NCBI GenBank assembly: GCA_002713215.1
Contig: PAVO01000017.1
Span: forward strand, 1-64,000
Direction: 5' to 3'
DNA length: 64,000 nt
Source of the DNA: Crocinitomicaceae bacterium
Lineage (GTDB): Bacteria; Bacteroidota; Bacteroidia; Flavobacteriales_G; Salibacteraceae
Part shown: one piece after another, positions 6,043 to 62,054 of the stretch
Layout: each line of letters begins with the position of its first letter
Numbering within the stretch: position 1 is the first letter of the stretch
The notes under the pieces: model-generated
Database searches by the model: none
Seen by the model: the letters and a program-made list of their open reading frames with translations, nothing else
What the model was told of the DNA's origin: nothing
Made by a program: the position numbers and the translations under genes

Positions 6043-6471
6043 ATGATCAAAACTATGCTTCTAAAATCACTGGCCGTTATTGTTTCCGTGTTGACCATAG
6101 TGGCATCTGTTGATTGGTCGATCAATGCTCATTTTTGTGGTGATCAATTGATTAACTTGGCTTTTATTGGTGAAGCCGAAGGTTGTGGAATGGATGAAGC
6201 CAGATCAACCTGTGAACCCAATCCTCTTACGGAATCCTATAAGGGGATTTGTTGCTCCAATAGAGATATCGTCTTTACACCCGAAGATGTTCTATCTCAA
6301 CTAACTGCTAAAAAAGGGCTTAAGAAGAACCAAAATACAGTTGAACTGTTTGACCATTCATTACCCTTAGTTGGATTACTGAAAACAACCAAAACCTTGT
6401 GTTGGGGAAATTCTTCACCCCCTTGGTTTTTCAAGGACCTCTTTATTCTTCACAAGGTTTTTAGACTATAG
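6043..6471 (+). CDS. HYC_CC_PP family protein
   Basis: A small exported or membrane-anchored protein of 142 residues. It carries the signature of the Bacteroidota HYC_CC_PP family: an N-terminal hydrophobic segment, HFC near residue 35, a CC pair (GICCSN) near residue 70, and a late PP (SSPPW). The conserved His and Cys residues suggest metal binding. The family's role is not established, though members are often found near copper or metal genes. ATG 6043 and ATG 6055 both leave the hydrophobic segment intact. It stands 171 bp upstream of the MbnP/multicopper operon on the same strand, which fits a copper connection. That link is inference. Confidence 0.7.
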   Translation: MIKTMLLKSLAVIVSVLTIVASVDWSINAHFCGDQLINLAFIGEAEGCGMDEARSTCEPNPLTESYKGICCSNRDIVFTPEDVLSQLTAKKGLKKNQNTVELFDHSLPLVGLLKTTKTLCWGNSSPPWFFKDLFILHKVFRL

Positions 6472-6642: not shown

Positions 6643-7659
6643 ATGAAAAAATATTTAATCCTATTGATAACATTATCGTTTGTTACTACCACAATTCAGG
6701 CGCAGGTTGATGTTAAGTTAAGAATCAATCATAAATCAGGAAGTCAGGATTTTAAATTTAACGATGTTGTTACAGCAAAAGACGGGTACAACATTAGGTT
6801 TACGCGGCTTCAATATTATATTTCAAAAATTAAATTAATTCATGATAACGGAAAAGAAACTGTTCTGGAGGACGTTTACCTATTGGAAAATGCTGGTATG
6901 AAACTGACTCATGATCTAGGGAATTTCGATATTAAGTATTTGGAGGGCATTAAGTTTAGTATCGGCGTGGACAATGGCCCAAACCCAAACCCCAATGATC
7001 CTTCAAACAACACAACCAATCACGCAGATCCAAATCTATGGCCTAATAGCCACGCTCTCGCATTAAAAAGTCCGAGAATGCACTGGGGATGGTCTGCAGG
7101 GTATCGATTTGTTTGCATGGAAGGGTTTTCAGGACCTTCTACGAATTTTTCGTGTGAAATGCATGCACTAGGAGATGCCAATTATCATGAAGTTGACCTG
7201 GTGGCTGGAGCAGAAATCATTAACAACGAAATGGTAATCGAAATTAATGCCGACTACTTGGAATCATTGTACAATGTTAATATGTCAAGTGGTTTTTACT
7301 TGCATAGTGTAGGGGGCAAGGCAGTAACATTTTTGAAGAACTTTCAACAACGAGTGTTCAGCGCTTCAATGGAACCCATTAAGAATACTACCGGTGTAGG
7401 AAGCATAAAAGGACACGATTATCAAATGAAATTCCAACCAAACCCTTCAGACGGTCCCATTAAGGTGACTTTCAAACCGAAAGGCAATAGCACCTATTTG
7501 TTTCAGGTATTTAACCTTCAGGGTAAGTTGATAGAAAAGTATGAACTGAACGGTTCAAATGCTTTTGAGATTGAAGGACTATCTGTAGGAATTTACCATG
7601 GAGTCTTATTGGAAAATAATGAGGCTATTGATATTCAAAAAATGGTAATCATAAGGTAG
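6643..7659 (+). CDS. mbnP: MbnP family copper protein with T9SS sorting domain
   Basis: A 338-residue exported protein. Start ATG 6643 gives a clean signal peptide ending IQAQ; upstream codons in frame are not signal-like. Residues 21-245 match the MbnP family: the LQYYISKIKL strand near 56-65 and the conserved MHWGWSAGYRFV at 146-157. Residues from about 264 form a T9SS C-terminal domain (FQPNPSDGPIKV ... LSVGIYHG). In methanotrophs MbnP binds copper and is oxidised on tryptophan to kynurenine by the di-heme partner MbnH. Trp133, Trp148 and Trp150 are candidates here. The MbnH-like gene follows after 4 nt. The T9SS tail implies surface display, unlike periplasmic methanotroph MbnP. Confidence 0.85.
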   Translation: MKKYLILLITLSFVTTTIQAQVDVKLRINHKSGSQDFKFNDVVTAKDGYNIRFTRLQYYISKIKLIHDNGKETVLEDVYLLENAGMKLTHDLGNFDIKYLEGIKFSIGVDNGPNPNPNDPSNNTTNHADPNLWPNSHALALKSPRMHWGWSAGYRFVCMEGFSGPSTNFSCEMHALGDANYHEVDLVAGAEIINNEMVIEINADYLESLYNVNMSSGFYLHSVGGKAVTFLKNFQQRVFSASMEPIKNTTGVGSIKGHDYQMKFQPNPSDGPIKVTFKPKGNSTYLFQVFNLQGKLIEKYELNGSNAFEIEGLSVGIYHGVLLENNEAIDIQKMVIIR

Positions 7660-7663
7660 ACAA

Positions 7664-8668
7664 GTGCGTATTTCGTTCTTAATTCTGTTGGGGGTATTAT
7701 CGGTTGTCTTACTGGGGAATAAAGGCCAGGAAGATTTGCTTGACGTACTTAAGGCTGAACCAAAACATTTTCCGCAAATTGATTATCCAACGGATAATGA
7801 TATTACAGTGGAAAGATGGAAGTTGGGGAAAAGACTCTTTTACGATCCGACGCTCTCACGGGATAGTTCAATTAGTTGTGCTTCTTGTCACTTACCTGGT
7901 TTTGCATTTTCAGATACCCTGGCATTTAGTTTAGGAGTGGAAAAGAGGGTAGGAGTGAGAAATGCCCCTTCATTGGCAAATGTTGCCTACCATCCTTATC
8001 TCTCTCGGGATGGCGGAGTTCCAAGTTTGGAAATGCAAATTCTTGTACCGGTTCAGGAACATCTCGAAATGGATTTTAGTACCCTGGAAATAGCCGATCG
8101 TATGATGAAGGATAGTAGCTACTACAATGAAAGTATGGTTGCATATAATCGTTATCCTGATCCCTATGTAATAACGCGTGCATTAGCGTGTTTCGAAAGG
8201 ACACTAATAAGTAGTAACAGTAAGTATGATCGAGTTCAATTGGGTAAAGAGGAATTTACGGTTGAGGAAGAACGAGGCCATCAACTGTTCACAAGTGAAA
8301 GAACTCAATGTTCAACTTGTCACTCGGGATTCAATTTTACTAATTACAAATTTGAGAACAACGGATTGAGAATTCATTATTCGGATTCTGGAAGAATGAG
8401 AGTAACAAAATCGGAAATTGATCGCGATAAGTTTAAGGTGCCTTCACTGAGAAACGTAGAACTCACGGGGCCCTACATGCACGATGGGTCCATTAAAAGA
8501 CTAGAAGAAGTTGTTGGTCATTATTCAGAAGGAATTATAGAACATAAAAATTTAAGCACTGGAATTAAAAATCTTTATTTAACAGAAAACGAAAGAAAGG
8601 ATTTGGTATCGTTTTTAAAAACATTGACAGATCCTGGATTTTGTAAAAACAATTTATACACACAATAA
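7664..8668 (+). CDS. mbnH: MbnH/MauG-type di-heme c peroxidase
   Basis: A 334-residue protein of the bacterial di-heme cytochrome c peroxidase/MauG superfamily. Two haem c sites are present: CASCH (72-76) and CSTCH (216-220). The late GPYMHDGS motif is typical of the second haem domain. The GTG start at 7664, 4 nt after the mbnP stop, begins a signal peptide (MRISFLILLGVLSVVLLG). Adjacent to MbnP it is best read as MbnH, which in methanotrophs uses peroxide to oxidise a tryptophan of MbnP. A general H2O2-scavenging peroxidase is the alternative. It has no T9SS tail, so it is expected in the periplasm. Confidence 0.82.
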   Translation: MRISFLILLGVLSVVLLGNKGQEDLLDVLKAEPKHFPQIDYPTDNDITVERWKLGKRLFYDPTLSRDSSISCASCHLPGFAFSDTLAFSLGVEKRVGVRNAPSLANVAYHPYLSRDGGVPSLEMQILVPVQEHLEMDFSTLEIADRMMKDSSYYNESMVAYNRYPDPYVITRALACFERTLISSNSKYDRVQLGKEEFTVEEERGHQLFTSERTQCSTCHSGFNFTNYKFENNGLRIHYSDSGRMRVTKSEIDRDKFKVPSLRNVELTGPYMHDGSIKRLEEVVGHYSEGIIEHKNLSTGIKNLYLTENERKDLVSFLKTLTDPGFCKNNLYTQ

Positions 8669-8677
8669 AACAAAGTC

Positions 8678-9382
8678 ATGAAATTGAATAGGTTATATAT
8701 TTTAATGTTGTTATTTGTATCAACCCAGATTCAGGCACAAAAATTTAGCCTGTCTACTAACCAGATAACTGATAGTTTATACATCAATGGAACATTTGAA
8801 GACGGTATTGACCTAACCAACAATTCTCCTAACCGCATTCTGGTTAAATGGCGTGTACTCGAAAACACAATTGACACAGCCAATTGGGAGATTTTATACT
8901 GCTCTTATCCTTCTTGTCGGGCAGAAATATTATCAGAGGAGGTATGTGATACAATAGAAAAATTGCAGAAAGTTCGGGTTAGCAACTTAAATATCATTAC
9001 CGAAAAGAATCCCAAAAATTGCCAGTTGAAAATTGAGCTTTTCGATATTCTGGATTCTTCTTACAGGGATACCCTTACCTATGCACTTTATGCAAGCTCT
9101 ACGGATAAAATTACGGGGATAGATAATCCTGCAATTGCAGGTAATGGGATGAAGAATATAGAAATATTCCCGAACCCTGCATCAAATTCAGTTGGTATAA
9201 AAGTTCCAATAGAAATTGAAACAATTAGACTCATTGATTTCCATGGACGTGAAGTTCTTTCACAACCTGTGGGTGAAGAAGAGTTTTCTTTAGATGTTTC
9301 CTCCTTGCAACGAGGTGTTTATTGGGTATTAGGAATGAGTGCAAAAGGAGGAACTTATCATTCAAAATTAATCTTAGAATAG
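8678..9382 (+). CDS. T9SS-sorted protein with Cys motif, unknown function
   Basis: A 234-residue exported protein. The signal peptide ends IQAQ. Residues 20-145 form a beta-rich domain with NWEILYC and YPSC close together plus a later EEVCD. Trp-then-paired-Cys arrangements of this kind recur in uncharacterised Bacteroidota secreted proteins. From about residue 160 there is a T9SS sorting domain (IEIFPNPASNS ... LQRGVYWV). It sits in the middle of the MbnP/multicopper operon, 9 nt after mbnH and 7 nt before the cupredoxin gene, so a role in the same copper process is likely. The cysteines could bind copper or form disulphides; this is inference. Confidence 0.7.
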   Translation: MKLNRLYILMLLFVSTQIQAQKFSLSTNQITDSLYINGTFEDGIDLTNNSPNRILVKWRVLENTIDTANWEILYCSYPSCRAEILSEEVCDTIEKLQKVRVSNLNIITEKNPKNCQLKIELFDILDSSYRDTLTYALYASSTDKITGIDNPAIAGNGMKNIEIFPNPASNSVGIKVPIEIETIRLIDFHGREVLSQPVGEEEFSLDVSSLQRGVYWVLGMSAKGGTYHSKLILE

Positions 9383-9389
9383 AATCTAT

Positions 9390-10259
9390 ATGGTAACCAA
9401 AAACACGTTGATTGTTGTTAGTCTTCTGTTGATTTCTACAACCTTGTTTGGAGCAAGTAGCTCCAAACAGATAAATTTGAATAAGGGTACGTTGGTTACA
9501 GCTGATTCTACCAAGGTTCCTTATTACGCATTCAATAAGGATACAGTATTTTCCCAGGAAAATGAAAGGCTGCTGCTTACGCTGGGCGATACCTTATTGC
9601 TCACCGTTTACAACCGGACATCATCGGCACAACGATTTGTGGTACAGGAATTGGCGATTGATGTTTCAATTTCGGGAGGAGCCAGTCAATTGATCAAATT
9701 GACTCCCGCAAAGGCAGGAGTGTTTGTCTATTCTGCTGTAAATACAGGTAACGAAATAAACCATTACGGGGCTGCGGGAATGTTGGTTGTAACCGCTCCC
9801 AAATACAGTAAGCTGGTTACTTTCTATTGGAACATCAAGGATTTCGAGTATGCTAAGGTGTTGGATCTGGATTCTGGCAAGACAGTAGATTGGAAAACGT
9901 ACTACCCCGATTACTTTCTGGTTAATGGAAAAGGAAAGGATCAGTTGGTTGGTGATCTGGTTTCTAACCCGGTTGGCAAGGTTGGAGATTCACTTTTAAT
10001 TATGATGGCTAATACAGGAAAAGCAGTACACTCCATTCATTTTCATGGATATCATGCGATTGTGTTAGAATCCAATACGAAGAGGGTTCAAAAAGGGAGT
10101 AACAAGGACACTTTTCCTCTAGCTACAGGAGATGGCCTTATGGTATTAATGGTGCCGGATAAACCCGGGATTTATCCCGTTCATGATCATAATCTAATTG
10201 CCGTATCGGGTGGAGGCAAATATCCCAATGGAGTATTCATGATTCTTGATATTAAGTAA
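9390..10259 (+). CDS. two-domain cupredoxin protein, half of a multicopper oxidase site
   Basis: A 289-residue exported protein with two cupredoxin folds (about 30-137 and 175-289). The second carries HSIHFHG (His214, 217, 219) and VHDHN (His265, 267), the spacing of trinuclear-copper ligands in multicopper oxidases. There is no Cys-His-Met type 1 site; the usual HCH is HDH. The first domain has no HxH pairs. It is the exact complement of the next gene, which has a type 1 site and the other two HxH motifs but nothing in its second domain. It has no T9SS tail. The two may form one enzyme, or this protein may bind copper alone. Confidence 0.8.
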   Translation: MVTKNTLIVVSLLLISTTLFGASSSKQINLNKGTLVTADSTKVPYYAFNKDTVFSQENERLLLTLGDTLLLTVYNRTSSAQRFVVQELAIDVSISGGASQLIKLTPAKAGVFVYSAVNTGNEINHYGAAGMLVVTAPKYSKLVTFYWNIKDFEYAKVLDLDSGKTVDWKTYYPDYFLVNGKGKDQLVGDLVSNPVGKVGDSLLIMMANTGKAVHSIHFHGYHAIVLESNTKRVQKGSNKDTFPLATGDGLMVLMVPDKPGIYPVHDHNLIAVSGGGKYPNGVFMILDIK

Positions 10260-10262
10260 GTT

Positions 10263-11462
10263 ATGAAAAAGATTTTATTACTACAGATAACAATGCTTGG
10301 GTTTGTATATTCAATTTATGCTCAAGCAGATACCTCATTTAATATTTGGATGTGGACCACCGGATCACACGTATTACACGATGGTAAAAGATTAGAAAAT
10401 TATGGTTTTACGTTGGGTAGAGGTACTCCTAATATCCCGGGACCCGTGCTTCGGGTAAAGGAAGGGCAAAAAGTAAAGCTGGAAGTACGAAATCAATCGC
10501 AGGGAGCCCCGCACACGATTCATTTGCACGGGTTGGACGTAGACCAGGCCAACGATGGCGTTCCATTAACCAGTTGGGACATTAAGCATAAGGAAACCAA
10601 GGATTACAATTTTGTTGCTACACATCCCGGTACTTACCTTTATCACTGCCATGTGGCATCAGTTTTGCATGTGCAACTTGGAATGTACGGAAGCTTAATT
10701 GTCGAGCCAAAAAGCAAGGAAGCAGCTCCTGGTTATCCCTATCAACGTGATTTTAATTTGTTGCTTAGCGAAGCAGATAAATCCTGGTTCGATAATAAAC
10801 CCAAACACGCAACTGGTGATTCAGTACATGCCCAGTTTTACATTCCTAAGTACGAACCCGATTACTTCTTTGTAAATGGGCAGAGTCAGCACTTAATTGA
10901 TTCCCTTATTATGGGGGTTAGTGAATCTGTGCTCCTTCGCTTATCTAATGTAGGTTATTATGAAAATCAGGTACGGTTTCCGCAAGGGTTGACTGCTAAA
11001 TTGATGAGTTCGGATGGAAGGCCACTTCCCCAAAAAGATGTAATTGATACATTATTAATTTCTCCCGGAGAACGATACGGCGTGTTGCTTTCTCCGATTG
11101 GTAAAACCCGGGGAGTTATTGAAATTGATTATTTGCATTTGTTTACCAGAGAAGTGATTCAAACGGAGAAAGTACCTTATGGATTCGATACTACCTTATC
11201 TATACAGGCGGTTCAAAACTTCAAGGATATAAAGATTTTTCCAAATCCTGCTAAGGACTTTATTCGCATCAATTATCCAGTTTCTGAAAACGTTGTTGTG
11301 ACTTTGGTATCTGCCTCAGGGCAGCAGTATGAAACGAAGGGAACAAAGATGGATGACAGCATGGAATTCGATATTAGGCATTTGCCTGCTGGAAATTATG
11401 TAATGCAGCTTTGGGTTGACAATAAATTACAAGGGACGAGGAACGTTGTAAAGGTAGAATAG
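10263..11462 (+). CDS. multicopper-oxidase-like protein with type 1 site and T9SS tail
   Basis: A 399-residue exported protein; the signal peptide ends YAQ. Cupredoxin domain 1 (about 25-148) contains HTIHLHG (His84, 87, 89) and YHCHVASVLHVQLGM. The latter gives a type 1 copper site (His84, Cys129, His136, Met141) and half of a trinuclear cluster (His87, 89, 128, 130). Domain 2 (about 180-300) has no HxH motifs. From about residue 325 there is a T9SS sorting domain (IKIFPNPAKDF). It begins 3 nt after the previous cupredoxin gene and closes the operon. It is probably a copper or phenol oxidase, or an electron-transfer copper protein needing a partner. Confidence 0.83.
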   Translation: MKKILLLQITMLGFVYSIYAQADTSFNIWMWTTGSHVLHDGKRLENYGFTLGRGTPNIPGPVLRVKEGQKVKLEVRNQSQGAPHTIHLHGLDVDQANDGVPLTSWDIKHKETKDYNFVATHPGTYLYHCHVASVLHVQLGMYGSLIVEPKSKEAAPGYPYQRDFNLLLSEADKSWFDNKPKHATGDSVHAQFYIPKYEPDYFFVNGQSQHLIDSLIMGVSESVLLRLSNVGYYENQVRFPQGLTAKLMSSDGRPLPQKDVIDTLLISPGERYGVLLSPIGKTRGVIEIDYLHLFTREVIQTEKVPYGFDTTLSIQAVQNFKDIKIFPNPAKDFIRINYPVSENVVVTLVSASGQQYETKGTKMDDSMEFDIRHLPAGNYVMQLWVDNKLQGTRNVVKVE

Positions 11463-11623
11463 CGGCGTTTAAGAGTTTGACTTTAGAGTATGTATTAATT
11501 GAACGTAATTTTACCAGTAGTCATCAATATTCTGGAAAATAGGTTTACGATTTTTATGATTTTTTGGAAACAATAAAATGGGGTAACCTTTTGTTTTGAG
11601 AGGAATAAATTTCAATAACTAAG

Positions 11624-12259
11624 GTGATTCGTAGATACTTAAAAATTGGCCTTTTAGCCGCAGTTTTAGTATGCATTGGAATTGTTGTTACCAATGAATT
11701 GGTAGAACAAAGCGCTAAGGATAGAGTATTCAATTCAACCCGCGAAATTCCTTCTAACAAGGTAGGTTTACTTTTAGGGACCGCTAAATACCTGGGCAAC
11801 GGACATAAGAATTTGTATTACCTCTATCGAATTGATGCTGCGGTTCGACTCTATAAAGCAGGTAAAATAAAGTACATTTTGGTGAGTGGAGACAATGGCA
11901 ACAAAAACTACGACGAACCTACCGACATTAAAAACGATTTGATGGCTAAAGGTGTTCCTGAAGACAGAATTTACCTCGATTACGCCGGATTTCGAACCTT
12001 AGATTCGGTGGTTAGAAGCAAGGAAATTTTTGGCCAAAAAAAGGTGACCGTTATTTCCCAGCAATTTCATAACGAAAGAGCCATTTTTATAGCCAATATG
12101 AAGGGAGTTGAGGCGGTTGGTTACAACGCCAAGGATGTTGGAGGAAAATTTGGATTAAGGGTGAAAATCAGGGAGCGATTGGCCCGTGTCAAAATGATGC
12201 TGGATTTGATTTTTGGTAAGGAGCCTAAGTTTTTAGGAGAAAAAATTCAAATTTCCTAA
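11624..12259 (+). CDS. SanA/YdcF-like (DUF218) envelope protein
   Basis: A 211-residue protein with one N-terminal membrane anchor (about 6-24) and a DUF218 domain. The family pattern is visible: GLLLGTAKYLGNG, RIDAAVRLYKAGK, ILVSGDN near residue 90, then TLDSVVRSKEIF and QQFHNERA. In Escherichia coli SanA affects envelope integrity (vancomycin exclusion); the reaction is not known. The start is GTG 11624, preceded by AACTAAG. It stands alone between the copper operon and a convergent gene. Family confidence is high, precise function unknown. Confidence 0.82.
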   Translation: MIRRYLKIGLLAAVLVCIGIVVTNELVEQSAKDRVFNSTREIPSNKVGLLLGTAKYLGNGHKNLYYLYRIDAAVRLYKAGKIKYILVSGDNGNKNYDEPTDIKNDLMAKGVPEDRIYLDYAGFRTLDSVVRSKEIFGQKKVTVISQQFHNERAIFIANMKGVEAVGYNAKDVGGKFGLRVKIRERLARVKMMLDLIFGKEPKFLGEKIQIS

Positions 12260-38198: not shown

Positions 38199-38903
38199 CT
38201 AATCGTGGCATTCAACAGCAGTATCTGTCTCAGGGTTTAATTGCGGACTTACGTAAGGAATTCCCAGGTTTAATCCCCGAAGGATAAATAGGGTTCCAAT
38301 TAATATGGCGAAAAAGGGAAGAATTCGTCTCACCCGGTTACGCCATTGAATTCCAATGAAACCAGGGGAAAGGGCTGCGGTTATCATCATGGGTAAAGTA
38401 CCCAGACCAAATACAAACATAAAGAGTCCACCAGAGAGGGTATCGTAACTTGTAATGGCACCAATAACCGCAAAATAAACCAAACCGCATGGGAGCAATC
38501 CATTCAAAACACCAATCAACAGCAATGAGGTCATTGATTTAGATTTTAGGTGGAGCCCCATGTTTGTTTTAATTCGGGTTAGAAATTTTGACATGAATGG
38601 GGTTAAGCTAACCAACCTATCAAAAGAGTAGGGGAGTACAGCTCCAAGGATAATAGCTGCTCCCATAATGATTGAGAATATTTGCTGATAACCAAAAAAA
38701 GCAACTCCTTTTCCAAGAATACCGAGTATTATTCCGATGACGGAGTAGGTAAGCAGACGCCCTGAGTTATAAATGAAAGTTCCGGAAAGTTGAGCGGCAA
38801 GGCTGGATCGGTCAAGTGGAAGTGCAAGTGCAATAGGTCCGCACATGCCAATGCAATGCAAACTGCCCATTAAACCAATCATAAATGCTGTTACAAAATC
38901 CAT
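38199..38903 (-). CDS. TauE/SafE-type membrane protein of the cbb3 locus
   Basis: A 234-residue protein with about six membrane helices, of the sulphite-exporter TauE/SafE (DsbD_2/UreH-like) group. The opening motif GSLHCIGMCGPIALALP, with two cysteines and a histidine in the first helix, is characteristic of the version that follows ccoG-ccoH in many cbb3 clusters. It is thought to help copper delivery or assembly of the oxidase, although its activity is not proven. It lies 37 bp after ccoH on the same strand. Confidence 0.8.
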   Translation of the reverse strand: MDFVTAFMIGLMGSLHCIGMCGPIALALPLDRSSLAAQLSGTFIYNSGRLLTYSVIGIILGILGKGVAFFGYQQIFSIIMGAAIILGAVLPYSFDRLVSLTPFMSKFLTRIKTNMGLHLKSKSMTSLLLIGVLNGLLPCGLVYFAVIGAITSYDTLSGGLFMFVFGLGTLPMMITAALSPGFIGIQWRNRVRRILPFFAILIGTLFILRGLNLGIPYVSPQLNPETDTAVECHD

Positions 38904-38940
38904 TATTCAATAAATGAATACCGATTCAATTTCCTTAAAA

Positions 38941-39372
38941 CTACAGGTCAATGTTTTTCTTAACGAAGTAACCAGTGCCATTAACCATCCAGTCTACCTC
39001 CAAAACGTATCTACCACCAGGTTTCTCGGCTATGTCAAACAAGGCTGATCCATTTTGAATGCTACTAACTACGAACTTTGAATCCAATTTTTTATCAGAA
39101 GGTCGATAAAGATTTACCGAAGCAGAATCAATTATTTCCTGTGGAAATAAAACCGTCAATTGATCACCGCTTATGGAATATTCCAACTCCTTGCCGAGAT
39201 CGAGGTAGTTTTTGTTTTTATCAATGGTTTGCTGAAAAAGCAACTCTTTGGCGTAGTAATCTTCCGTCTCCAAATCGTGATCCGTTCGAATAGCCTGTAT
39301 AACCATGGACATGATGTACACAATAAAGACGATCATTCCCAGTGTTAATCCATGTCCCCAATTAAACTTCAT
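38941..39372 (-). CDS. ccoH: FixH/CcoH family assembly protein
   Basis: A 143-residue protein with one N-terminal membrane helix (about 6-26: GHGLTLGMIVFIVYIMSMVI) and a periplasmic domain. TDHDLETEDYYAKELLFQ matches the FixH/CcoH family pattern. It helps assemble the cbb3 oxidase and is found directly after ccoG in most clusters, as here (49-bp gap). Confidence 0.85.
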   Translation of the reverse strand: MKFNWGHGLTLGMIVFIVYIMSMVIQAIRTDHDLETEDYYAKELLFQQTIDKNKNYLDLGKELEYSISGDQLTVLFPQEIIDSASVNLYRPSDKKLDSKFVVSSIQNGSALFDIAEKPGGRYVLEVDWMVNGTGYFVKKNIDL

Positions 39373-39421
39373 TTCAGGTGTTTTGAAATTCGAATTTAGC
39401 TACTTCGTTTGGTCCTTTGTA

Positions 39422-40840
39422 TCAAGGACCTAAGAAATTGGCTTTTACTGTTTCCAGTTTTCTTCCTTCTGACCAAACTTCAAATTCAATTTTAGTTTTT
39501 CTTCCGTCTAAACTTTCCCTTGGAATGATAACAAACATGGCTCCTTCGGTCACCTTTCTTGCATCGACATGCAATTTCTGCCCTACCATGTTTACACTTC
39601 CTTCCCTTTCAACCAATCGAATCTCGAAGTCGAAATCATTATTGGTTTTATTTACAACCTTGTAATTATACAGGTTTTTAATTTGCCCGTCCTCGGTTTT
39701 CATATAGAGCATACCCGGCGTTCTTAAAATTGAAGTCTCAACATCAGTTCGTCCAAATATTAGTCCTCCCATGGTAATGGTAAGAATAATGAGTACTGCA
39801 GTATAAGCCTTTATTCGAGCACTGAATTTGAATTTCTTACCCTCGGCCAGGTCGTTTTCAGAATAATAACCAATAAGGTTAGGGCTTAATCCTACCCCTT
39901 CCATCATACTATCACAAGCGTCTATACAGGCTGTACAATTTACACACTCCAACTGAGTTCCGTTTCGAATATCGATTCCCGTAGGACAAACATCCACACA
40001 AGCACCACAATCGATACAATCTCCTTTTCCAACCTCAGAGCGAACCTCTTTCTTACCCTTCCATCTACCACGTCCTTCGCCCCGAACATAGTTGTAGGCT
40101 ACTACTACTGAGTTCCGATCCAACATAACACCTTGAAGTCTTCCATAGGGACAAACCGCAATACATACCTGCTCTCGAAAACGAGCAAACACACCGTAAA
40201 ATACTCCCGAAAACACAATGAGCAGTGACAGGCCAGCGAGATGGTCCATTGGATTTGAGGTTTGGATTTTAACCAATTCATCACTTCCAATAATGTAGGC
40301 TAAAAATGTATTGGAGATAGCCACCGAAATCATGAAAAAGATTCCATGTTTGAGTACTCGTTTTCTTATTTTTTCAGCATTCCAGGGTTGTTTGTCCAGT
40401 TTACGTTGGTGTTTAAAATCTCCGTCAATGAAGTATTCAATTTTTCGGAAAACCATTTCCATAAAAATAGTTTGAGGACACAACCAACCGCAAAACACAC
40501 GACCAAAAACTACGGTAAACAGAACAATAAAGACAACCCCTGTAATCATTGCAAAAGCAAAGAGGTGAATGTCTTGCGGCCAAAAGACCTGGCCGAATAT
40601 GGAAAACTTACTTTCAGTAATGTTCAGTAAAAGGAAGGGTTCTCCATCAATTCTGATCCAGGGGCCAGCGAATAGTAGTGTCAATAAAAGAATTGAGACT
40701 ATAGAACGGTAGTTGTAGAGTTTACCTTTTGGTTTTTTGGCGAAAATCCAATGACGTTTTCCGTCGTCATCAATAGTACCAATTGAGTCTCTAAACGAGT
40801 CGTCTGGTTTAAATTGACGTTCGGTATTTACATCACTCAT
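39422..40840 (-). CDS. ccoG: CcoG/FixG iron-sulphur membrane protein
   Basis: A 472-residue assembly factor for cbb3 oxidase with about five membrane helices (about 44-62, 90-112, 160-180, 195-212 and 340-360). Two ferredoxin-type 4Fe-4S motifs are CIDCGACVDVCP and CVNCTACIDACD, and a further CGWLCPQ lies near residue 118. The last 120 residues are an Ig-like periplasmic domain. CcoG reduces copper on the way to the oxidase. A perfect -7 box (CAAAGTTA on the plus strand, 40845-40852) lies 4 bp before the ATG, so its mRNA may be leaderless. Confidence 0.93.
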   Translation of the reverse strand: MSDVNTERQFKPDDSFRDSIGTIDDDGKRHWIFAKKPKGKLYNYRSIVSILLLTLLFAGPWIRIDGEPFLLLNITESKFSIFGQVFWPQDIHLFAFAMITGVVFIVLFTVVFGRVFCGWLCPQTIFMEMVFRKIEYFIDGDFKHQRKLDKQPWNAEKIRKRVLKHGIFFMISVAISNTFLAYIIGSDELVKIQTSNPMDHLAGLSLLIVFSGVFYGVFARFREQVCIAVCPYGRLQGVMLDRNSVVVAYNYVRGEGRGRWKGKKEVRSEVGKGDCIDCGACVDVCPTGIDIRNGTQLECVNCTACIDACDSMMEGVGLSPNLIGYYSENDLAEGKKFKFSARIKAYTAVLIILTITMGGLIFGRTDVETSILRTPGMLYMKTEDGQIKNLYNYKVVNKTNNDFDFEIRLVEREGSVNMVGQKLHVDARKVTEGAMFVIIPRESLDGRKTKIEFEVWSEGRKLETVKANFLGP

Positions 40841-40844
40841 AATT

Positions 40845-40852
40845 CAAAGTTA
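40845..40852 (-). promoter_or_regulatory. ccoG promoter -7 element, probably leaderless
   Basis: Reads TAACTTTG on the minus strand, a perfect TAnnTTTG, then AATT and the ATG. Because the upstream ccoP terminator lies at 40890-40915, ccoG seems to have its own promoter. No TTG -33 element at the standard distance was found. Confidence 0.5.
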
Positions 40853-40889
40853 GGGGAAAAGTTATGTGATAAAAGTTACATTAAACTTC

Positions 40890-40915
40890 AAAAAAAATCC
40901 TCCCGAAGGAGGATT
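40890..40915 (-). terminator. rho-independent terminator after ccoP
   Basis: On the minus strand, an 8-bp stem AATCCTCC / GGAGGATT (arms 40908-40915 and 40896-40903) with a TTCG loop is followed by a run of eight T's. It starts 4 nt beyond the ccoP stop and separates ccoSNOQP from ccoGH. Confidence 0.85.
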
Positions 40916-40919
40916 CTAA

Positions 40920-42095
40920 TTAATCTTCAGAGGTGTTATCCTGTTTGGGGTCAGGTTCCGTTGCTTCTTCTGATTCTGTTTCTTCAGAAGCAGGTGTTTC
41001 TTCGGTTGGAGCAGCTGGTTCAGCTTCAGCACCTTCGTCCACCCAAATTTCTCCCTGAGCTTCCTTCTGATTTGGAGGGTTTGTTCCTTCCAGGCTCATG
41101 ATATAAGAAGTAACACTTTTCATTTGACCAGGACTCATTTGACTTTCCCATGGAATCATACCCTTGGTTGGAACACCATATTTAATGGTTTTAAATATGT
41201 TTTTTGCTCCACCACCATGAATCCAGTTTTTGTCAGTGAAATTTGGTCCAACTCCACCTTCACCTTTGTCACCATGACATGCAACACAGTTGGCAACATA
41301 TATTTCACGACCTTCTGCAAGAGTTGCCTCATCCATAGATGCCTCAATATTGCTTTCATCGATCAAATTGGACATGCCGGCTAAATAAGCTTGTTTTGCT
41401 TCTTCCGCTTCCTGCATGGCAATTTCATATTCTACATTTTGCAGGTTTCCATTTCCAAAATGATAATAAGGTACGTAGAAGACGGAGAAAATGATCGTTG
41501 CATAAAATCCCCATAACCACCAAGGTGGAAGGTTATTATCCAATTCCCGAATTCCATCGTGTTCATGTTCGAACATAATTTCTTCTTCACGCTCAATTGG
41601 AACCACATCAGTAAGTGCGGCAGCCCATGTATCGGTTACACCCTCTTCCGTGTCTTCACTGTCCTTCATAAGACTCATTAAATTCCTCAATACTCCAATT
41701 TGATAGAAGAGGAGGAGAAGAAGTACGATCATCATTATGAGCAATGCATAGAACAAATCAGAACCCATCACAAACTGGTTTGCTCCCCCTGTTTGTGCGA
41801 AAGCATTGGTAGATCCGAAAACACCAATTAGGAGGATTACCACCCCCACTTTCGATTTATCCATTTTATCTTTTACAATGGCCCAAAGGTCATGATCCGA
41901 GGAAATGGATTTAATGGTTGCTACCAACACTAGATTAACTATAATGAGCAAAGCGATTACTCCAACCAAGGCCCATAACAAAACGTCGTCAGGAACCAAT
42001 CCTGATCTTCCTTCTGCGTTCTGTGCGAATAACTGTGTGGTTAATAGAACGAGCAAAGTGGTAAGGACTTTTGGTGTAACTTTTTTAATATTCAT
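40920..42095 (-). CDS. ccoP: cbb3 cytochrome oxidase subunit III (CcoP), single haem
   Basis: A 391-residue subunit from ATG 42095; the frame is open 23 codons further upstream but the hydrophobic start fits here. Order: an N-terminal membrane segment, a second pair of membrane helices near 55-140, a FixP N-domain (LDNNLPPWWLWGFYATIIFSV), a cytochrome c domain with only one CxxCH (CVACH), and a Glu/Ala/Pro-rich tail of about 50 residues. Classical proteobacterial CcoP has two haem sites, so this is a mono-haem form. The protein feeds electrons to CcoO/CcoN. It follows ccoQ by 28 nt and ends at a terminator. Confidence 0.88.
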   Translation of the reverse strand: MNIKKVTPKVLTTLLVLLTTQLFAQNAEGRSGLVPDDVLLWALVGVIALLIIVNLVLVATIKSISSDHDLWAIVKDKMDKSKVGVVILLIGVFGSTNAFAQTGGANQFVMGSDLFYALLIMMIVLLLLLFYQIGVLRNLMSLMKDSEDTEEGVTDTWAAALTDVVPIEREEEIMFEHEHDGIRELDNNLPPWWLWGFYATIIFSVFYVPYYHFGNGNLQNVEYEIAMQEAEEAKQAYLAGMSNLIDESNIEASMDEATLAEGREIYVANCVACHGDKGEGGVGPNFTDKNWIHGGGAKNIFKTIKYGVPTKGMIPWESQMSPGQMKSVTSYIMSLEGTNPPNQKEAQGEIWVDEGAEAEPAAPTEETPASEETESEEATEPDPKQDNTSED

Positions 42096-42123
42096 TTTTC
42101 TCGATTTTTCTATTGTCAAATTT

Positions 42124-42297
42124 TTATTTGTCATTTCCATCCAGGGGAATGCTTGAAACCTCATCGATGGTTTCTTTTTTCATTGAAAACACCCAGGCGA
42201 GTACCAGAGCAAACATGGCCGTAAAAAGTACCAACGTAATAATTGGGAAAATTTCAATTCCATCAATGGAGGCCATATGTCCCTTTATAAATTTCAT
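42124..42297 (-). CDS. ccoQ: CcoQ/FixQ-like small subunit
   Basis: A 57-residue frame with one membrane helix (about 17-38: FPIITLVLFTAMFALVLAWVF) followed by a charged MKKETIDE tail. Size, topology and position between ccoNO (12 nt upstream) and ccoP (28 nt downstream) identify it as CcoQ. It is thought to stabilise the assembled oxidase. Confidence 0.8.
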   Translation of the reverse strand: MKFIKGHMASIDGIEIFPIITLVLFTAMFALVLAWVFSMKKETIDEVSSIPLDGNDK

Positions 42298-42309
42298 CTT
42301 AAAGTAGAA

Positions 42310-44451
42310 TTACTCATTACTAATATCTGTTCCCAATCGTTGCAGATAAGCAATCAGTGCTATAACCTCTTTGTCCTTATCTACCTGTACATCCGGATAC
42401 ACTTCAAGAATGTTGTCTACTATTTTTTGACCTTGTTCATCCATATCCTGGAATGCCTGGTCTTCGTAGCCTTCTTCATAGGGTACTCCCAGGGTACGCA
42501 TGGCTGCAATTTTCTTTAATGTTAAACTTCGATCCAGGTTGTCTTCTGTAATCCATGTATATGCCGGCATAATTGATCCGGAAGATGTAGACCTTGGGTC
42601 GTAAATGTGGTTGTAATGCCACGCATCAGATTTTCTCAACTTAGGTGTTCCTTCACGAGCCAAATCCGGTCCGGTACGCTTAGATCCCCATTGGAATGGG
42701 TGGTCGTAAACAAATTCACCGGCTTTAGAGTATTCTCCGTATCTCTCTGTTTCATGACGGAAAGGACGAATCATTTGAGAGTGGCAGGTGTAACAACCTT
42801 CCCGAATGTAAATGTCTCTTCCCTCTAATTCCAACGGTGTATAGGGTTGGACGCTTGCAATGGTGGGAACATTTGATTTTACTAGGAAGGTTGGGATTAA
42901 TTCGAATAATCCACCAACTGCAACAACTACCAAACTAACCACCAACATTTGAACTGGTTTCCTTTCTATCCAACGATGCCAGTGCTCGCCTTTTTTAGCA
43001 GCATAAACTTTCTGTAAGGCAGGAGCCTCATCAGCTTCTGAAGGCATAAATGATCCTTGATAGGCAGTTTTAATTAAGTTATAAACTCCAATAGCTGCAC
43101 CGGTAAAATACAATGTACCTCCAAGCACTCTTAGTTGATACATGCCGCTTATTTGCGTAACTGTTTCAAGGAAGTTTGGATAAGCCAAGTAACCTTCAGC
43201 AGTAAATTCTTTCCACATGAAGTATTGTGCAAATCCCGCCCAGTAAAGTGGAAGAGCGTAGAATATAATACCCAGTGTACCTAGCCAAAAATGTGTATTC
43301 GCCAGGGTGTCAGAGTAGATTTTCGTTTTCCACATTTTAGGAATCATGTAGTAAAGCATGCCAAATACCATGAATCCGTTCCACCCTAATCCACCAATGT
43401 GAACATGACCAACAATCCAGTCGGTATAATGTGCAATGGCATTAACTGATTTAAGTGAAAGCATTGGTCCTTCAAAGGTTGCCATACCGTAACAGGTAAT
43501 AGCCACAACCATAAATTTGAGAACAGCATTGTCACGAACCCTATCCCAGGCACCTCTCAACGTAAGCAATCCGTTAAGCATACCTCCCCAGGATGGAGCA
43601 ATAAGCATTACACTAAATACAACTCCCAGGCTTTGAGCCCAATCGGGTAGTGCGGTGTACAGTAAGTGGTGAGGTCCAGCCCATATATATAAGAAGATCA
43701 ATGCCCAAAAGTGAACGATTGAAAGTCGGTATGAGTAAACCGGACGATTGGCTGCTTTAGGAATGAAGTAATACATCAATCCTAAAAATGGTGTAGTTAA
43801 GAAAAAGGCTACCGCATTATGACCATACCACCATTGAACCAGTGCATCCTGAACTCCTGCATACCAGCTGTAAGATTTCATAAGGCTTACAGGCAGTTCA
43901 AAGCTATTTACTATGTGCAGCATAGCTACAGTAACGAAGGTGGCGATATAAAACCAGATGGCTACATATAAATGTCGCTCCCTCCGTTTAATAATGGTCA
44001 TAAACATATTGACACCAAAAACTACCCAAATAAGTGCGATTAAAATGTCAATCCACCATTCCAGTTCGGCATATTCCTTACCTGTGGTAATTCCCAGAGG
44101 AAGGGTTGCAACAGCACATACAATAATGAACTGCCAGCCCCAGAAATTAATATTCGAAAAGGCTTTGGACCACATTGGTGTTTTAAGCAAACGCGGTAAC
44201 GAGTAATAAACCCCTGCAAAAAGGGCATTACCAACAAATGCAAATATTACCGCATTGGTATGGAGTGGTCGAATTCTACCATACGATATATACCTGATTA
44301 ACAGGTTGTCATTAAAAAAATCTGCAAATGCAAGCTGACAAGCCGCAATCAGGCCCACTAACATTCCTACTAAACCGAATAGAGCAGTTACGATAATGAA
44401 TTTTTTCACTATCGAATTGTCATATTCAAACTTTTCCAGTTCCATCGACAT
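42310..44451 (-). CDS. ccoNO: fused cbb3 oxidase subunits I and II (CcoN-CcoO)
   Basis: A 713-residue fusion. Residues 1-465 are the CcoN haem-copper core with about 12 membrane helices. The low-spin haem ligand candidate is His64; CuB ligands are His211 (WWYGHNAV), His261 and His262 (AGPHH); haem ligands are His349 and His351 (GHVHIGGLGWNG). Residues about 490-713 are CcoO, with one helix and a haem c site CYTCH (553-557). It reduces oxygen at high affinity and pumps protons. Fusion of N and O is the usual arrangement in Bacteroidota. It overlaps ccoS by 26 nt. Confidence 0.93.
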   Translation of the reverse strand: MSMELEKFEYDNSIVKKFIIVTALFGLVGMLVGLIAACQLAFADFFNDNLLIRYISYGRIRPLHTNAVIFAFVGNALFAGVYYSLPRLLKTPMWSKAFSNINFWGWQFIIVCAVATLPLGITTGKEYAELEWWIDILIALIWVVFGVNMFMTIIKRRERHLYVAIWFYIATFVTVAMLHIVNSFELPVSLMKSYSWYAGVQDALVQWWYGHNAVAFFLTTPFLGLMYYFIPKAANRPVYSYRLSIVHFWALIFLYIWAGPHHLLYTALPDWAQSLGVVFSVMLIAPSWGGMLNGLLTLRGAWDRVRDNAVLKFMVVAITCYGMATFEGPMLSLKSVNAIAHYTDWIVGHVHIGGLGWNGFMVFGMLYYMIPKMWKTKIYSDTLANTHFWLGTLGIIFYALPLYWAGFAQYFMWKEFTAEGYLAYPNFLETVTQISGMYQLRVLGGTLYFTGAAIGVYNLIKTAYQGSFMPSEADEAPALQKVYAAKKGEHWHRWIERKPVQMLVVSLVVVAVGGLFELIPTFLVKSNVPTIASVQPYTPLELEGRDIYIREGCYTCHSQMIRPFRHETERYGEYSKAGEFVYDHPFQWGSKRTGPDLAREGTPKLRKSDAWHYNHIYDPRSTSSGSIMPAYTWITEDNLDRSLTLKKIAAMRTLGVPYEEGYEDQAFQDMDEQGQKIVDNILEVYPDVQVDKDKEVIALIAYLQRLGTDISNE

Positions 44452-52318: not shown

Positions 52319-53794
52319 CTAGAGATTGCTAATGATGGCTCTATGATTTTCTACACCGTTGGTTCGTACAATATGGATAGTATAAACGCCTGTTTTAAAA
52401 TTTGAAACGTCTATGGTAGCTTCGGTTTCATACTTGCTCCAGTTATTGGGCATTACCCGACCGGTTTCATCCAGGATCATTATTTCTTCAACCTCAGAAA
52501 TTTCGCCGGAAATATGAAGTTGTTCGTTTGCCGGATTTGGAAAAAGAGCGTATTGGAATGTACTTGCTGTAGCATTAATTTCTATGCTCCTTAGAGGGAA
52601 ATAGGTTTTATTACCATCAAAATCAGTCTGGGACAACCGATAATACATGATGTTGGGAAAATCGATGCGGTCGGTAGCAGAATATGTTTGGGTTGTATTG
52701 GAGTTTCCGGCCCCTTTAAGTTCGCTAACAAATGACCAAATCTGTCCGTTATGACTTCTTTCCAGGGTAAAGAAATCGTTGTTCAATTCCGATTGAGTCT
52801 TCCACGTCAGGACAATATGATTACCTTCCTTGTACGCTGTAAACGAAGTTAATTCCACAGGAAGTGGATCAGACCCTAAACCACCCCAGGTTGCACCGGT
52901 TAGAGAGGTACCACAGCTATAGGTATTGTTGGAGTCAATGGAAAAGTCGGTATCCGTGTGAAAACCTCCACTACCTGAACCTTCATTGTCCGTGAAATTG
53001 ACCAGAGATGACCTGGAAGTACCATCTTTGACTTCATAAGTTGGTTCAGTAGAACTACCTGAAGTCGTACAAATATTAATGCAGCCCAAAGTTCCAGGTC
53101 GGTCCTTATTTATATCAAACTCTACCAATGGTGTATATATTGCACCACAACATAAAACGGATGAACCATGTACTTTGAACTTGGTCTCCGCTTCAATAAT
53201 TCCACAGTTTTCTAATTCCCCATCAACGTGTAATTCTCCTTTGGCATCTCCCAGCGTACTGGATATTAAAATGTAACCTGTAGTTGCATTGGTTGTTTTT
53301 CCGGAAGAACTAGTTCCTGCTTCACTATTCGTTCCGCTATGCATTTTACCAGTAACAATTGTATCGGCATTATACAGGTAGGGTATACCAGAAACGTAAG
53401 TTTTATCCAATCCCTTAACCTCTACTTTTTTTGCATTAATAACTCCGCTGTTGTATAGTTCCCCACTGTTGGACCCATTTCCAACTTTAATAGTTTTCGT
53501 ATATCCTTTAAGTGATCCTGCGGAGCTAATAACCACTACACCATTTATTTTTAAATCCGAGACATAAGTAACCGAAGAGACAATAAACACAGAGTCTCCC
53601 GAGGATAAAGTCGTTCCTGGAGCGGATCCACCAACCCAGGTTCCGTTTGTTTCCCAGTCTCCCCCACTTGCCTCTGAGGTATAATTCGTGGCATTGGCAT
53701 TAAAATGGAATACCAGAATAAAGGTCAATAATATGCCTAGTAGTCTTGTTAAGATGATAGTATAGTTATAGTAAAACTTTGAAAAGTAATGCAA
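52319..53794 (-). CDS. T9SS-secreted beta-rich protein
   Basis: A 491-residue secreted protein. The start is TTG 53794, the only usable start before the signal peptide (LLGILLTFILVFHFNANA). Residues 40-260 are a repetitive beta-helix-like domain of Ser/Gly/Thr-rich short strands (GDWETNGTWVGGSAPG, a G8/cell-surface-like opening). Then comes the LPVELTSFTAYKEGNHIVL module shared with the propeller protein at 12286-15441, and a T9SS sorting domain (YALFPNPANEQ). Probably a surface adhesin or polysaccharide-binding protein; no catalytic site seen. Confidence 0.75.
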   Translation of the reverse strand: MHYFSKFYYNYTIILTRLLGILLTFILVFHFNANATNYTSEASGGDWETNGTWVGGSAPGTTLSSGDSVFIVSSVTYVSDLKINGVVVISSAGSLKGYTKTIKVGNGSNSGELYNSGVINAKKVEVKGLDKTYVSGIPYLYNADTIVTGKMHSGTNSEAGTSSSGKTTNATTGYILISSTLGDAKGELHVDGELENCGIIEAETKFKVHGSSVLCCGAIYTPLVEFDINKDRPGTLGCINICTTSGSSTEPTYEVKDGTSRSSLVNFTDNEGSGSGGFHTDTDFSIDSNNTYSCGTSLTGATWGGLGSDPLPVELTSFTAYKEGNHIVLTWKTQSELNNDFFTLERSHNGQIWSFVSELKGAGNSNTTQTYSATDRIDFPNIMYYRLSQTDFDGNKTYFPLRSIEINATASTFQYALFPNPANEQLHISGEISEVEEIMILDETGRVMPNNWSKYETEATIDVSNFKTGVYTIHIVRTNGVENHRAIISNL

Positions 53795-53913
53795 CTTTCA
53801 ATAATAGGTTTGGATAGAGAGCTAAAAAGGTGTTTTTTTCGATGTCTCCGATTAATTCAAGAACAAAGCCAGTTCTATTCTCATTTTTATTTAATCGCAG
53901 TAAAGCCTAAGAA

Positions 53914-55284
53914 TTAACAAATGTAATCCTTGTTTTCCTCGGCAATTTCACAAATGATTCCCAGTTCATCCTGAATTTTTACTCGTAACGAATCAGCCGA
54001 TACAGGTTCTCCATGATTAATAAAAATTCGTTTTGGTTTTTTTGACATTCGCTTAATCCAAAGCAGCAATTCTTTTTGGTCAGCGTGGGCACTCATGTTT
54101 TTTAATAGGTGAATGTTAGCAAATACACGATGGTATTTCCCAAAGAACTTCAGTTCAGGCATGCCATTAAGCAACTGGCGCCCCCTGGTTCCTTCGGCCT
54201 GAAACCCAGTGAGAACAATGGAGCATGAAGAATCTCCAACGTGTCGTTCCAGGTAATTTAGAATTCTACCCCCGCTTAACATTCCACTACCAGCGATAAC
54301 AATTTTTTGCTCATCGCTTTCCACATTTCTTTTGGAAGCTCCTCCATCCCGAATACCATGAACCAATTTGGAAAGTATCTCCAATATTTCTTTTTCAATA
54401 GGTCGGCGAAAATCAAAATCCATAAAGATTTCGGTTGCCGAAATAGCCATAGGGCTGTCGATGTAGATTTTCTTTTTTGGAATTTTACCTTCTACCAGCA
54501 ATTCACCCAGATAATGTAAGATTTCTTGAGTTCGTTCAACAGCAAACGCGGGGATTAATACATTGCCCCCATTTTGAAAAGTCGTGTTGATTATTTTCTC
54601 TAACTCAGCTTTTGGGTCTTCCTTTTCATGTTCTCTACGCCCATAGGTACTCTCAATTACAAGATAATCCGCTTCCTCACACCGATGAGCAGGGAGCAAC
54701 AATTGAGGTTTACTTCGGCCCAAATCTCCGGAGAAGACAATTTTCCTACCATAAGATCGAATTTCGGTCCAGGCACTTCCCGCGATATGGCCAGCATTGT
54801 GCAATACGAATTTGAAATCCTTGTTGAGAATAATCCATTCTCCATAATTGTGTACTTCGAATAGTCCTAAACAGGCCTCAACATCATTGGTAGTGTATAG
54901 AGGTTTGGCAGGTTTATGAGCAGTGTAGTGTAGCCGGTTTGCTTTTTCCGCGTCTTCTTCCTGAATGTGTGCACTATCGAACAAAATGAGTTCAGCTAAT
55001 TTTTTGGTTGCCTGAGTACAGTGGATTTTTCCGGAAAACCCGTTTCTAACCAGAAGTGGTAAGTAACCTGAATGATCGAGATGTGCATGGGTAAGAATGA
55101 CGTCATTAACCGAAGATTCCTCAATGGGAAGTTCCGACCAGTTTTTAAGCCTTAGGTTTTTTAATCCCTGAAACAAACCACAATCAACCATTAGGGAATG
55201 TTGGTCAGTCGTAAGAAGCGTTTTCGATCCGGTTACGGTTCCTGCTCCCCCTAAAAACTGGATTTTAATCTGATTGTCATTCAT
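53914..55284 (-). CDS. beta-CASP metallo-beta-lactamase RNase
   Basis: A 456-residue metallo-hydrolase of the beta-CASP group (YSH1/CPSF73-like RNA nucleases). The metal motif THAHLDHSGYLP, the AGHIAGSA histidine, the SGDLG aspartate, ESTYGRREHE, GSGMLSGGR and the C-terminal HADQKEL are all present. It is the bacterial stand-alone form with a beta-CASP insert and no KH domain. It likely processes or degrades RNA. It begins 15 nt after the V-ATPase K gene and may be read from that operon. Confidence 0.88.
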   Translation of the reverse strand: MNDNQIKIQFLGGAGTVTGSKTLLTTDQHSLMVDCGLFQGLKNLRLKNWSELPIEESSVNDVILTHAHLDHSGYLPLLVRNGFSGKIHCTQATKKLAELILFDSAHIQEEDAEKANRLHYTAHKPAKPLYTTNDVEACLGLFEVHNYGEWIILNKDFKFVLHNAGHIAGSAWTEIRSYGRKIVFSGDLGRSKPQLLLPAHRCEEADYLVIESTYGRREHEKEDPKAELEKIINTTFQNGGNVLIPAFAVERTQEILHYLGELLVEGKIPKKKIYIDSPMAISATEIFMDFDFRRPIEKEILEILSKLVHGIRDGGASKRNVESDEQKIVIAGSGMLSGGRILNYLERHVGDSSCSIVLTGFQAEGTRGRQLLNGMPELKFFGKYHRVFANIHLLKNMSAHADQKELLLWIKRMSKKPKRIFINHGEPVSADSLRVKIQDELGIICEIAEENKDYIC

Positions 55285-55299
55285 ACCTTACCTTTCATC

Positions 55300-57540
<2,241 letters not shown>

Positions 57541-57544
<4 letters not shown>

Positions 57545-58131
57545 GCTGCTGCATTTCGTGATTTAACCATTTTTTGAGCGGCCTTGCTTAGATTCTCTTC
57601 GTCTTCCAGGAAACGCTTTATTTTCTTAATGCCCGATTCAATTTCGGGAATTTGAACCTTCTCGTATAAGTTTACTTTTTGCGTTGTTCTTTTTCTTTCG
57701 TGTTCAAGTGTGTTGAGTTGAAGTTGCAATACCCGGGTTTCAATTTGCAATCGGGTAAGTTTTCTCAAGTCTAAAACAGCTTCCGAAACCCAAACCCATT
57801 GATTGAACCAAAAGGTTTCGGGTGTTTTAAAAATGACTTCCTCCAAAATAGGAATTCGGACCCCCGCAATTTTTCTGTTGCTCAGCTTAGTTTCCTCAAC
57901 CTTTACCAAATTGAAATTGAACTGACTCCAGAGCTTTTTGTACTTATCCAATACTGCTTGTTGTTCTTTTTCCAGTTCAAGACTTGCCGTGTGAGCTCCC
58001 TTGGTTCGTTTTACCTCCAGGCGCAATGCACTTTCTTTGTTCTTGATTATGGGAAGTGCCATATTCCTCATTTTCAGGGACTTGTTTAGTGTCTGAAGAC
58101 TAGTTTTATTGTATTGAAATTTTATGGCCAA
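57541..58131 (-). CDS. ntpD: V-type ATPase subunit D (central shaft)
   Basis: A 196-residue, almost wholly helical protein. FQYNKTSLQTLNKSLKMR at the start and the terminal KIKRFLEDEENL match the D family, the rotating shaft linking catalytic head and membrane ring. It is translationally coupled to subunit I by an ATGA overlap and follows subunit B by 18 nt. Confidence 0.88.
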
Positions 58132-58149
58132 CTTATTTCCTATAGAATT

Positions 58150-59469: not shown

Positions 59470-59470
59470 A

Positions 59471-62049: not shown

Positions 62050-62054
62050 TAAGT

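Follow-up and report, generated by a model that had tools for sequence, protein, structure and literature searches.

Complementary two-cupredoxin proteins beside an MbnP/MbnH-like pair: a predicted heteromeric multicopper oxidase in Bacteroidota

The stretch analysed here (the window) comprises positions 1 to 64,000 of contig PAVO01000017.1 from Crocinitomicaceae bacterium (GCA_002713215.1), a genome of 5.03 Mb in 56 contigs that encodes PorU, the sortase of the type IX secretion system (T9SS). Five genes lie close together in the window, all on the plus strand and, on the open reading frame call, separated by gaps of 4, 9, 7 and 3 nt. They encode an MbnP-family copper-binding protein (6643..7659), an MbnH/MauG-like di-haem protein (7664..8668), a small T9SS protein, CysT9 (8678..9382), and two two-cupredoxin proteins, CupA (9390..10259) and CupB (10263..11462). 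A Pfam scan places the T9SS sorting domain PF18962 at the C-terminus of MbnP, CysT9 and CupB, and not of the MbnH-like protein or CupA. An original prediction, made from the letters of this DNA, had described five same-strand genes with this spacing, and an export tail on three of their products; the coordinates and the domain scan bear out both points. It did not include an HYC_CC_PP family gene directly upstream of MbnP, nor a complementary loss of copper ligands in CupA and CupB. The latter forms the basis for the reading developed here, in which CupA and CupB would be the two subunits of a single multicopper oxidase.

CupA (cupredoxin/Cu-oxidase_2) and CupB (Cu-oxidase_3, Cu-oxidase and a T9SS tail at 11235-11428) each contain two cupredoxin domains, D1 and D2, one of which is dead. 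In CupB, D1 carries the type-1 site and one half of a trinuclear site, with H84, H87 and H89 in the motif HTIHLH (10512..10529) and H128-C129-H130, H136 and M141 in HCH...H....M (10644..10685); D2 is the dead domain. In CupA, D1 is dead and the remaining half of the trinuclear site lies in D2, with H214, H217, H219 and H222 (HSIHFHGYH, 10029..10055) and the histidines of H265-D266-H267 (10182..10190). These residues were compared in 27 intact pairs, namely the window pair, 19 others of its order and seven of its class; one further locus, L040, was left out because of an indel. All eight CupB residues and all six CupA histidines are present in 27/27 pairs. The residue between H265 and H267 is Asp in 22 CupA sequences, Asn in five and never Cys.

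The dead domains were read by alignment to P0001, a relative with both halves in one chain. At the corresponding positions of CupA D1, the first HxH histidines and the type-1 cysteine are each found in 0/27, a lone histidine stands at one second-motif position in 2/27, and a histidine occupies the type-1 histidine position in 15/27. The first HxH histidines are likewise found in 0/27 CupB D2 domains, one of which has a lone histidine in the second motif. The two HxH pairs are kept in the opposite domain in 0/27 pairs. Two-domain multicopper oxidases are grouped into types A, B and C (available text of PMC13151041); two cupredoxin domains with type-1 ligands in D1, as looked for in a type-C two-domain enzyme, are found in 27/27 CupB proteins, whereas CupA lacks the type-1 cysteine. 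Neither chain contains all eight trinuclear histidines: CupB has the D1 set and CupA the D2 set in 27/27, and only the pair together has them all. The main correction to the original prediction is that what it described as a cupredoxin and a multicopper-oxidase-like protein would better be read as complementary parts of a single oxidase.

Profile searches with CupA and with CupB return the same top PDB proteins, the two-domain oxidases 2zwn and 3g5w. CupB aligns with every ligand of these proteins in D1 (HTIHLHG, HCH, H and M) and with none in D2, whereas CupA aligns with the ligands of D2 (HSIHFHG and HDH) and with none in D1. Single-chain relatives with both halves include P0001, in which a motif scan also shows them, and the Deinococcus proteins P0004 and P0005, read from translations. 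A maximum-likelihood tree built from 62 single domains, in which the placement of long single rows is unsure, groups the live CupA domains with D2 of the single-chain proteins and the live CupB domains with D1 (100/100). CupA has its closest named relatives in metagenome-assembled genomes labelled Flavobacteriales.

Among the 42 genomes of the order, 20 have CupA, with 21 loci between them; in the class sample, 16 of 395 genomes give strong matches, seven of them new, for 28 loci overall. In the class samples the best six candidates per genome for CupA, or the best four for CupB, were scored, and weaker copies may be missed. A phylum sample returned CupA from the genome of the window only (1/395), a count that tells little because the genomes listed belong to the same class. 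CupB is the next gene after CupA in 28/28 loci. Searched from the CupB side, 21/21 strong matches in the order adjoin CupA; two further, weak hits, at 87 and 76 bits, are to other proteins. In the 395 class genomes, 16/16 strong matches likewise adjoin CupA. Of the three other class matches, the one in G280 is a single-chain oxidase and the one in G174 a truncated remnant; the third, a degenerate CupB-like gene in G229, has no CupA and has lost its HTIHLHG and HCH motifs but keeps a CysT9 neighbour. The two genes overlap by 1-8 nt in 20/27 pairs and are separated by 1-12 nt in six and by 230 nt in one. A T9SS tail is present on 26/27 CupB proteins and on 0/27 CupA proteins, while a simple hydrophobicity test detects a signal-peptide-like N-terminus in 25/27 CupA and 27/27 CupB. 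Distances among CupA proteins correlate with those among CupB proteins (r 0.87). At L075 (8797-12075, minus strand; G394), a 1092-aa protein has CupA as its C-terminal part, and the adjacent CupB has 680 aa.

Bacteroidota are not alone in having split pairs. When plasmids were searched with CupA, three adjacent CupA-like/CupB-like pairs were found on two plasmids of the alphaproteobacterium Indioceanicola profundi, and a search with an Indioceanicola CupA-like query found a pair on a plasmid of Arthrobacter sp. FW305-BF8 (L127, 3689-6036). The halves in Arthrobacter overlap in different frames and lack an intervening signal peptide; this is probably one four-domain gene broken by a frameshift, real or due to sequencing error. 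The CupA halves of both genera have HCH in place of HDH.

The MbnP of the window, whose start is taken at an internal ATG, scores well over the gathering cut-off of PF20243 (85.6 versus 27 bits; 5.2e-24), in line with the original prediction, and ends in a T9SS tail at residues 266-336 (Por_Secre_tail, 2e-7). It falls far under the cut-off of the MbnP_like_WxW equivalog TIGR04052 (31.2 versus 140 bits), but the WxW motif itself is present (W148 and W150, 7084..7092) and is a candidate site for kynurenine. Its two tryptophans are kept in 36 and 35 of 37 MbnP sequences, and H174 (7162-7164) and H221 (7303-7305) in 37/37 and 30/37, respectively. The neighbouring protein is a di-haem protein of the CCP/MauG group, for which the best NCBIfam model is TIGR04039 (MbnH), at 248.5 bits against a cut-off of 362.85 that is passed in 0/42 genomes of the order, and the best PDB match is 6e1c (E 1.6e-46). 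The name MbnH-like, already used in the original prediction, is fitting because the best model is that of the MbnH family yet the score lies below its cut-off. The protein has two CXXCH haem motifs, CASCH (7877-7891) and CSTCH (8309-8323), and a tyrosine in VGHYSEG that we take to be at the MauG-type ligand position. Its clade lacks a tryptophan in the YLSRDGG region, where paralogues show FFWDGR; the residue replaced is presumably the inter-haem tryptophan of MauG.

The HYC_CC_PP family protein (142 aa, 6043..6471, plus strand) exceeds the cut-off of NF047658 (45.5 versus 28 bits). An HYC gene is found upstream of MbnP in 6/20 sampled MbnP loci, followed by one or two MbnH genes, and also in the CupA-containing loci L036 and L041. 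Seven loci (L088, L089, L091, L092, L094, L095 and L099) have two MbnH paralogues of different clades beside one or two MbnP genes, one paralogue with FFWDGR and the other without its tryptophan. At L091 (1604-4566), genes for a TonB-dependent receptor and a joined HMA-MauE protein are directly upstream of HYC-MbnP-MbnH. CysT9 has its T9SS tail (Por_Secre_tail, 2.1e-11) as its sole known domain, and a homologue is directly upstream of CupA in 12/28 loci, the window included. Its CxxxxC motif (C75 and C80) is kept in 14/15 homologues, and an AlphaFold2 model from a shallow alignment was unusable, with a predicted local distance difference test score (pLDDT) of 48. CysT9 was considered as a precursor of the "CxxxxC" family for a multinuclear non-haem iron-dependent oxidase (MNIO), but agreement with that family, as given in the available portion of PMC12452194, is limited to the cysteine spacing, and the assignment was rejected.

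Of the 42 genomes of the order, 41 have MbnP (PF20243) and 40 an MbnH-like protein, and co-occurrence of MbnP and CupA at the genome level is uninformative because MbnP is nearly universal. MbnP/MbnH is contiguous with CupA-CupB in 4/28 loci (the window, L036, L041 and L074), or 5/28 if L035, where the pairs are some 4-5 kb apart, is included. L036 repeats the full order of these genes from HYC onwards, except that an additional gene separates HYC from MbnP. In L041, MbnP/MbnH flanks CupA-CupB on either side, separated from it upstream by one T9SS gene, and in L074, from another family, the order is CysT9-CupA-CupB-MbnP-MbnH. Within the order, MbnP is located within 8 kb of CupA in 4/21 loci versus 0.31 expected under random placement, with P about 2e-4 when related genomes are treated as independent. 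The linkage may be undercounted because some loci end early (L044 and L051). It is above chance and yet a minority state. The original prediction, which expected these families to be linked and held that rare linkage would speak against it, therefore fares unevenly, as does its proposal of a surface copper module: the association is not random and recurs in L036, L041 and L074, but only five of 28 CupA-CupB loci have MbnP near, and MbnP/MbnH is nearly universal regardless. In a genome without CupA (G016), a CueO-like T9SS oxidase is encoded just upstream of HYC-MbnP-MbnH-MbnH (L092, 3196-5073), the single such case in 20 MbnP loci; this one arrangement fits an oxidase that works with MbnP. At L036, a radical-SAM protein is encoded directly after CupB (11393-12094).

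Known two-domain oxidases are rings of three identical chains, with the trinuclear centre between D1 of one chain and D2 of the next. From the ligand pattern, CupA and CupB are quite probably two subunits of one such type-C multicopper oxidase, with the roles divided so that CupB would keep the live D1 (type-1 copper and four histidines) and CupA the live D2 (four histidines). Because the opposite domains are dead, a trinuclear centre would be possible only where CupB D1 meets CupA D2, and the enzyme would be an obligate heteromer; the division of ligands argues against a homomer. Electrons would pass from the substrate to the type-1 copper of CupB, and the shared trinuclear centre would be the place of oxygen reduction. 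As the T9SS tail is on CupB alone, CupA would travel to the surface attached to CupB, or the complex would be periplasmic until export, and CupA is predicted to be co-exported with CupB.

MbnH is reported to oxidise a tryptophan of MbnP, and the MbnH-like protein probably does the same in the operon of the window. The T9SS-tagged MbnP may then bind copper at the surface and supply it to the oxidase or share it with it. Candidate substrates of the enzyme are copper(I), iron(II), manganese(II) and organic donors. MopE and CorA, which are made under copper shortage, bind copper(I) at the surface and use tryptophan-to-kynurenine chemistry (available text of PMC3423442 and PMC3912023), and oxidation of the tryptophan by the MauG-like partner has been proposed for them. 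By analogy with these proteins, which would share this chemistry and a MauG-like partner, copper is the natural guess for the substrate of the operon. The best reading of the sequences is a heteromeric multicopper oxidase that is exported to the surface and, in some loci, joins an MbnP/MbnH copper module. A fuller scenario is offered only tentatively: the obligate heteromer would derive from a duplicated homo-oligomer that lost opposite half-sites, T9SS would export it already assembled and loaded with copper, with CupA riding on CupB, and MbnP/MbnH would be dedicated loaders in some lineages.

Several observations weigh against this best reading. The quaternary structure and copper content of the heteromer are predictions, and an AlphaFold2 model of the read-through CupA-CupB chain, from a shallow alignment, was unusable, with a pLDDT of 45 and a predicted template modelling score of 0.30. 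The nearest neighbours of CupA and CupB agree in only 13/27 cases. A 689-aa open reading frame at L040 (G034) resembled a natural CupA-CupB fusion and was rejected as one, since the internal CupB signal peptide remains and the C-terminus of CupA is in another frame, which points to a one-base indel. Without a T9SS tail, CupA might miss the surface. With respect to MbnP, the linkage statistic does not allow for relatedness, in 23/28 CupA-CupB loci MbnP is missing from the surrounding 8 kb or so, and a link in only 5/28 loci implies that the oxidase has no need of MbnP.

It may instead be that CupA and CupB are separate proteins, CupB being a self-contained homomeric oxidase and CupA a cupredoxin that carries copper or transfers electrons, as their individual signal-peptide-like N-termini and the restriction of the export tail to CupB would allow. 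We regard this as improbable: apart from one stray histidine, CupB D2 lacks trinuclear ligands in 27/27 and a homomer would have half a site, while CupA, with no type-1 cysteine, retains exactly the four histidines that are missing, again in 27/27, and no intact CupB without CupA was found among the 42 order and 395 class genomes. The copper nitrite reductase model TIGR02376 does match CupB, at 64 bits, and gives a weak match of 26 bits to CupA. Both scores are far under its cut-off of 296 bits, the two HxH pairs in each chain (27/27) follow the trinuclear pattern, whereas nitrite reductases have a single type-2 copper with three histidines, and the best PDB relatives are two-domain laccases; that CupB is a nitrite reductase-like enzyme and not an oxygen-reducing oxidase is accordingly very improbable.

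The relationship between the oxidase genes and MbnP/MbnH can be viewed in other ways. The five genes may constitute an operon for copper acquisition without methanobactin, centred on MbnP/MbnH and with the cupredoxins in an accessory role, a model that draws on the MopE and CorA precedent, on the complete synteny at L036 and contiguity at L041 and L074, and on linkage above chance. It is possible but doubtful, given that most CupA-CupB loci lack a nearby MbnP and that almost every genome of the order has MbnP/MbnH, whether or not it also has CupA-CupB. The same scarcity of linked loci, together with the abundance of T9SS genes in these genomes, would suit a model in which the two sets of genes are adjacent by an accident of T9SS gene clustering and have no joint function. 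This seems unlikely, as contiguous same-strand arrangements are present in four genomes, in more than one gene order and in another family as well, the linkage exceeds random placement, and G016 has its CueO-like T9SS oxidase in the equivalent place.

Compared with the type-C two-domain oxidases 2zwn (two-domain type laccase) and 3g5w (Multicopper oxidase type 1), the heteromeric oxidase proposed here has the same two cupredoxin domains per chain and the same type-1 site and HxH/HCH motifs in D1 and HxH/HDH motifs in D2. However, the known enzymes are homotrimers with all ligands in each chain, whereas in CupA and CupB the ligands are divided and one domain of each is dead. Ceruloplasmin-type six-domain oxidases have one trinuclear centre in their ring, the other domain interfaces having lost theirs; they resemble the CupA-CupB enzyme in this single centre, but consist of one long chain where CupA-CupB has two. 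The heterodimeric fungal laccase-like enzymes NLAC and POXA3 are also composed of two different chains, but their small subunit is described as stabilising (available portion of PMC10741624), while CupA and CupB would each bring half of the copper ligands. Like the MbnP/MbnH pair (GenProp0940) and the MopE/SACCP and CorA/CorB systems of methanotrophs, the window combines a WxW-bearing MbnP domain with a di-haem partner of the MauG/MbnH type. It differs from these systems in the T9SS tail of its MbnP, in the neighbouring CysT9-CupA-CupB genes, and in an MbnH-like protein that is below the family cut-off and in which, as in its clade, what is presumably the inter-haem tryptophan of MauG is replaced.

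No report of a heteromeric or T9SS-exported multicopper oxidase, or of MbnP in Bacteroidetes, was found in searches of an open-licence library. The split oxidase is the new, testable point. If the reading is correct, CupA-CupB would represent an overlooked class of oxygen-reducing copper enzyme with an active site that exists only between two different proteins, and a natural case of a homo-oligomer turned obligate heteromer. Models of ceruloplasmin and laccase evolution assume intermediates of this kind. The system would also provide a clean test of T9SS export of an untagged partner, and would suggest a client enzyme for the MbnP/MbnH pairs of Bacteroidota, which lack an explanation.

A methanobactin precursor beside MbnB/MbnC was not found. 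The one MNIO of the genome (PF05114) is on contig C55 at about 52600-54600 (L121, 5127-7134), with an EGKCG-repeat precursor and a DUF2063 protein; this cluster is of the published Buf_EGKCG/oxazolin (bufferin) type, a copper-related ribosomally synthesised and post-translationally modified peptide and not a methanobactin. The suggestion that the five genes may function independently of methanobactin is not a novelty, as MbnP/MbnH pairs outside methanobactin loci were described already in 2013 (available text of PMC3621798).

Consensus promoter and terminator scans returned promoter-like sites no more frequently than in shuffled sequences. Elsewhere in the window, on the minus strand, translations indicate a cluster for a cbb3-type cytochrome oxidase, another copper user (38199-44451; its DsbD_2 protein, at 38199-38903, was scanned), and an apparent V/A-type ATP synthase operon (55300-62660).

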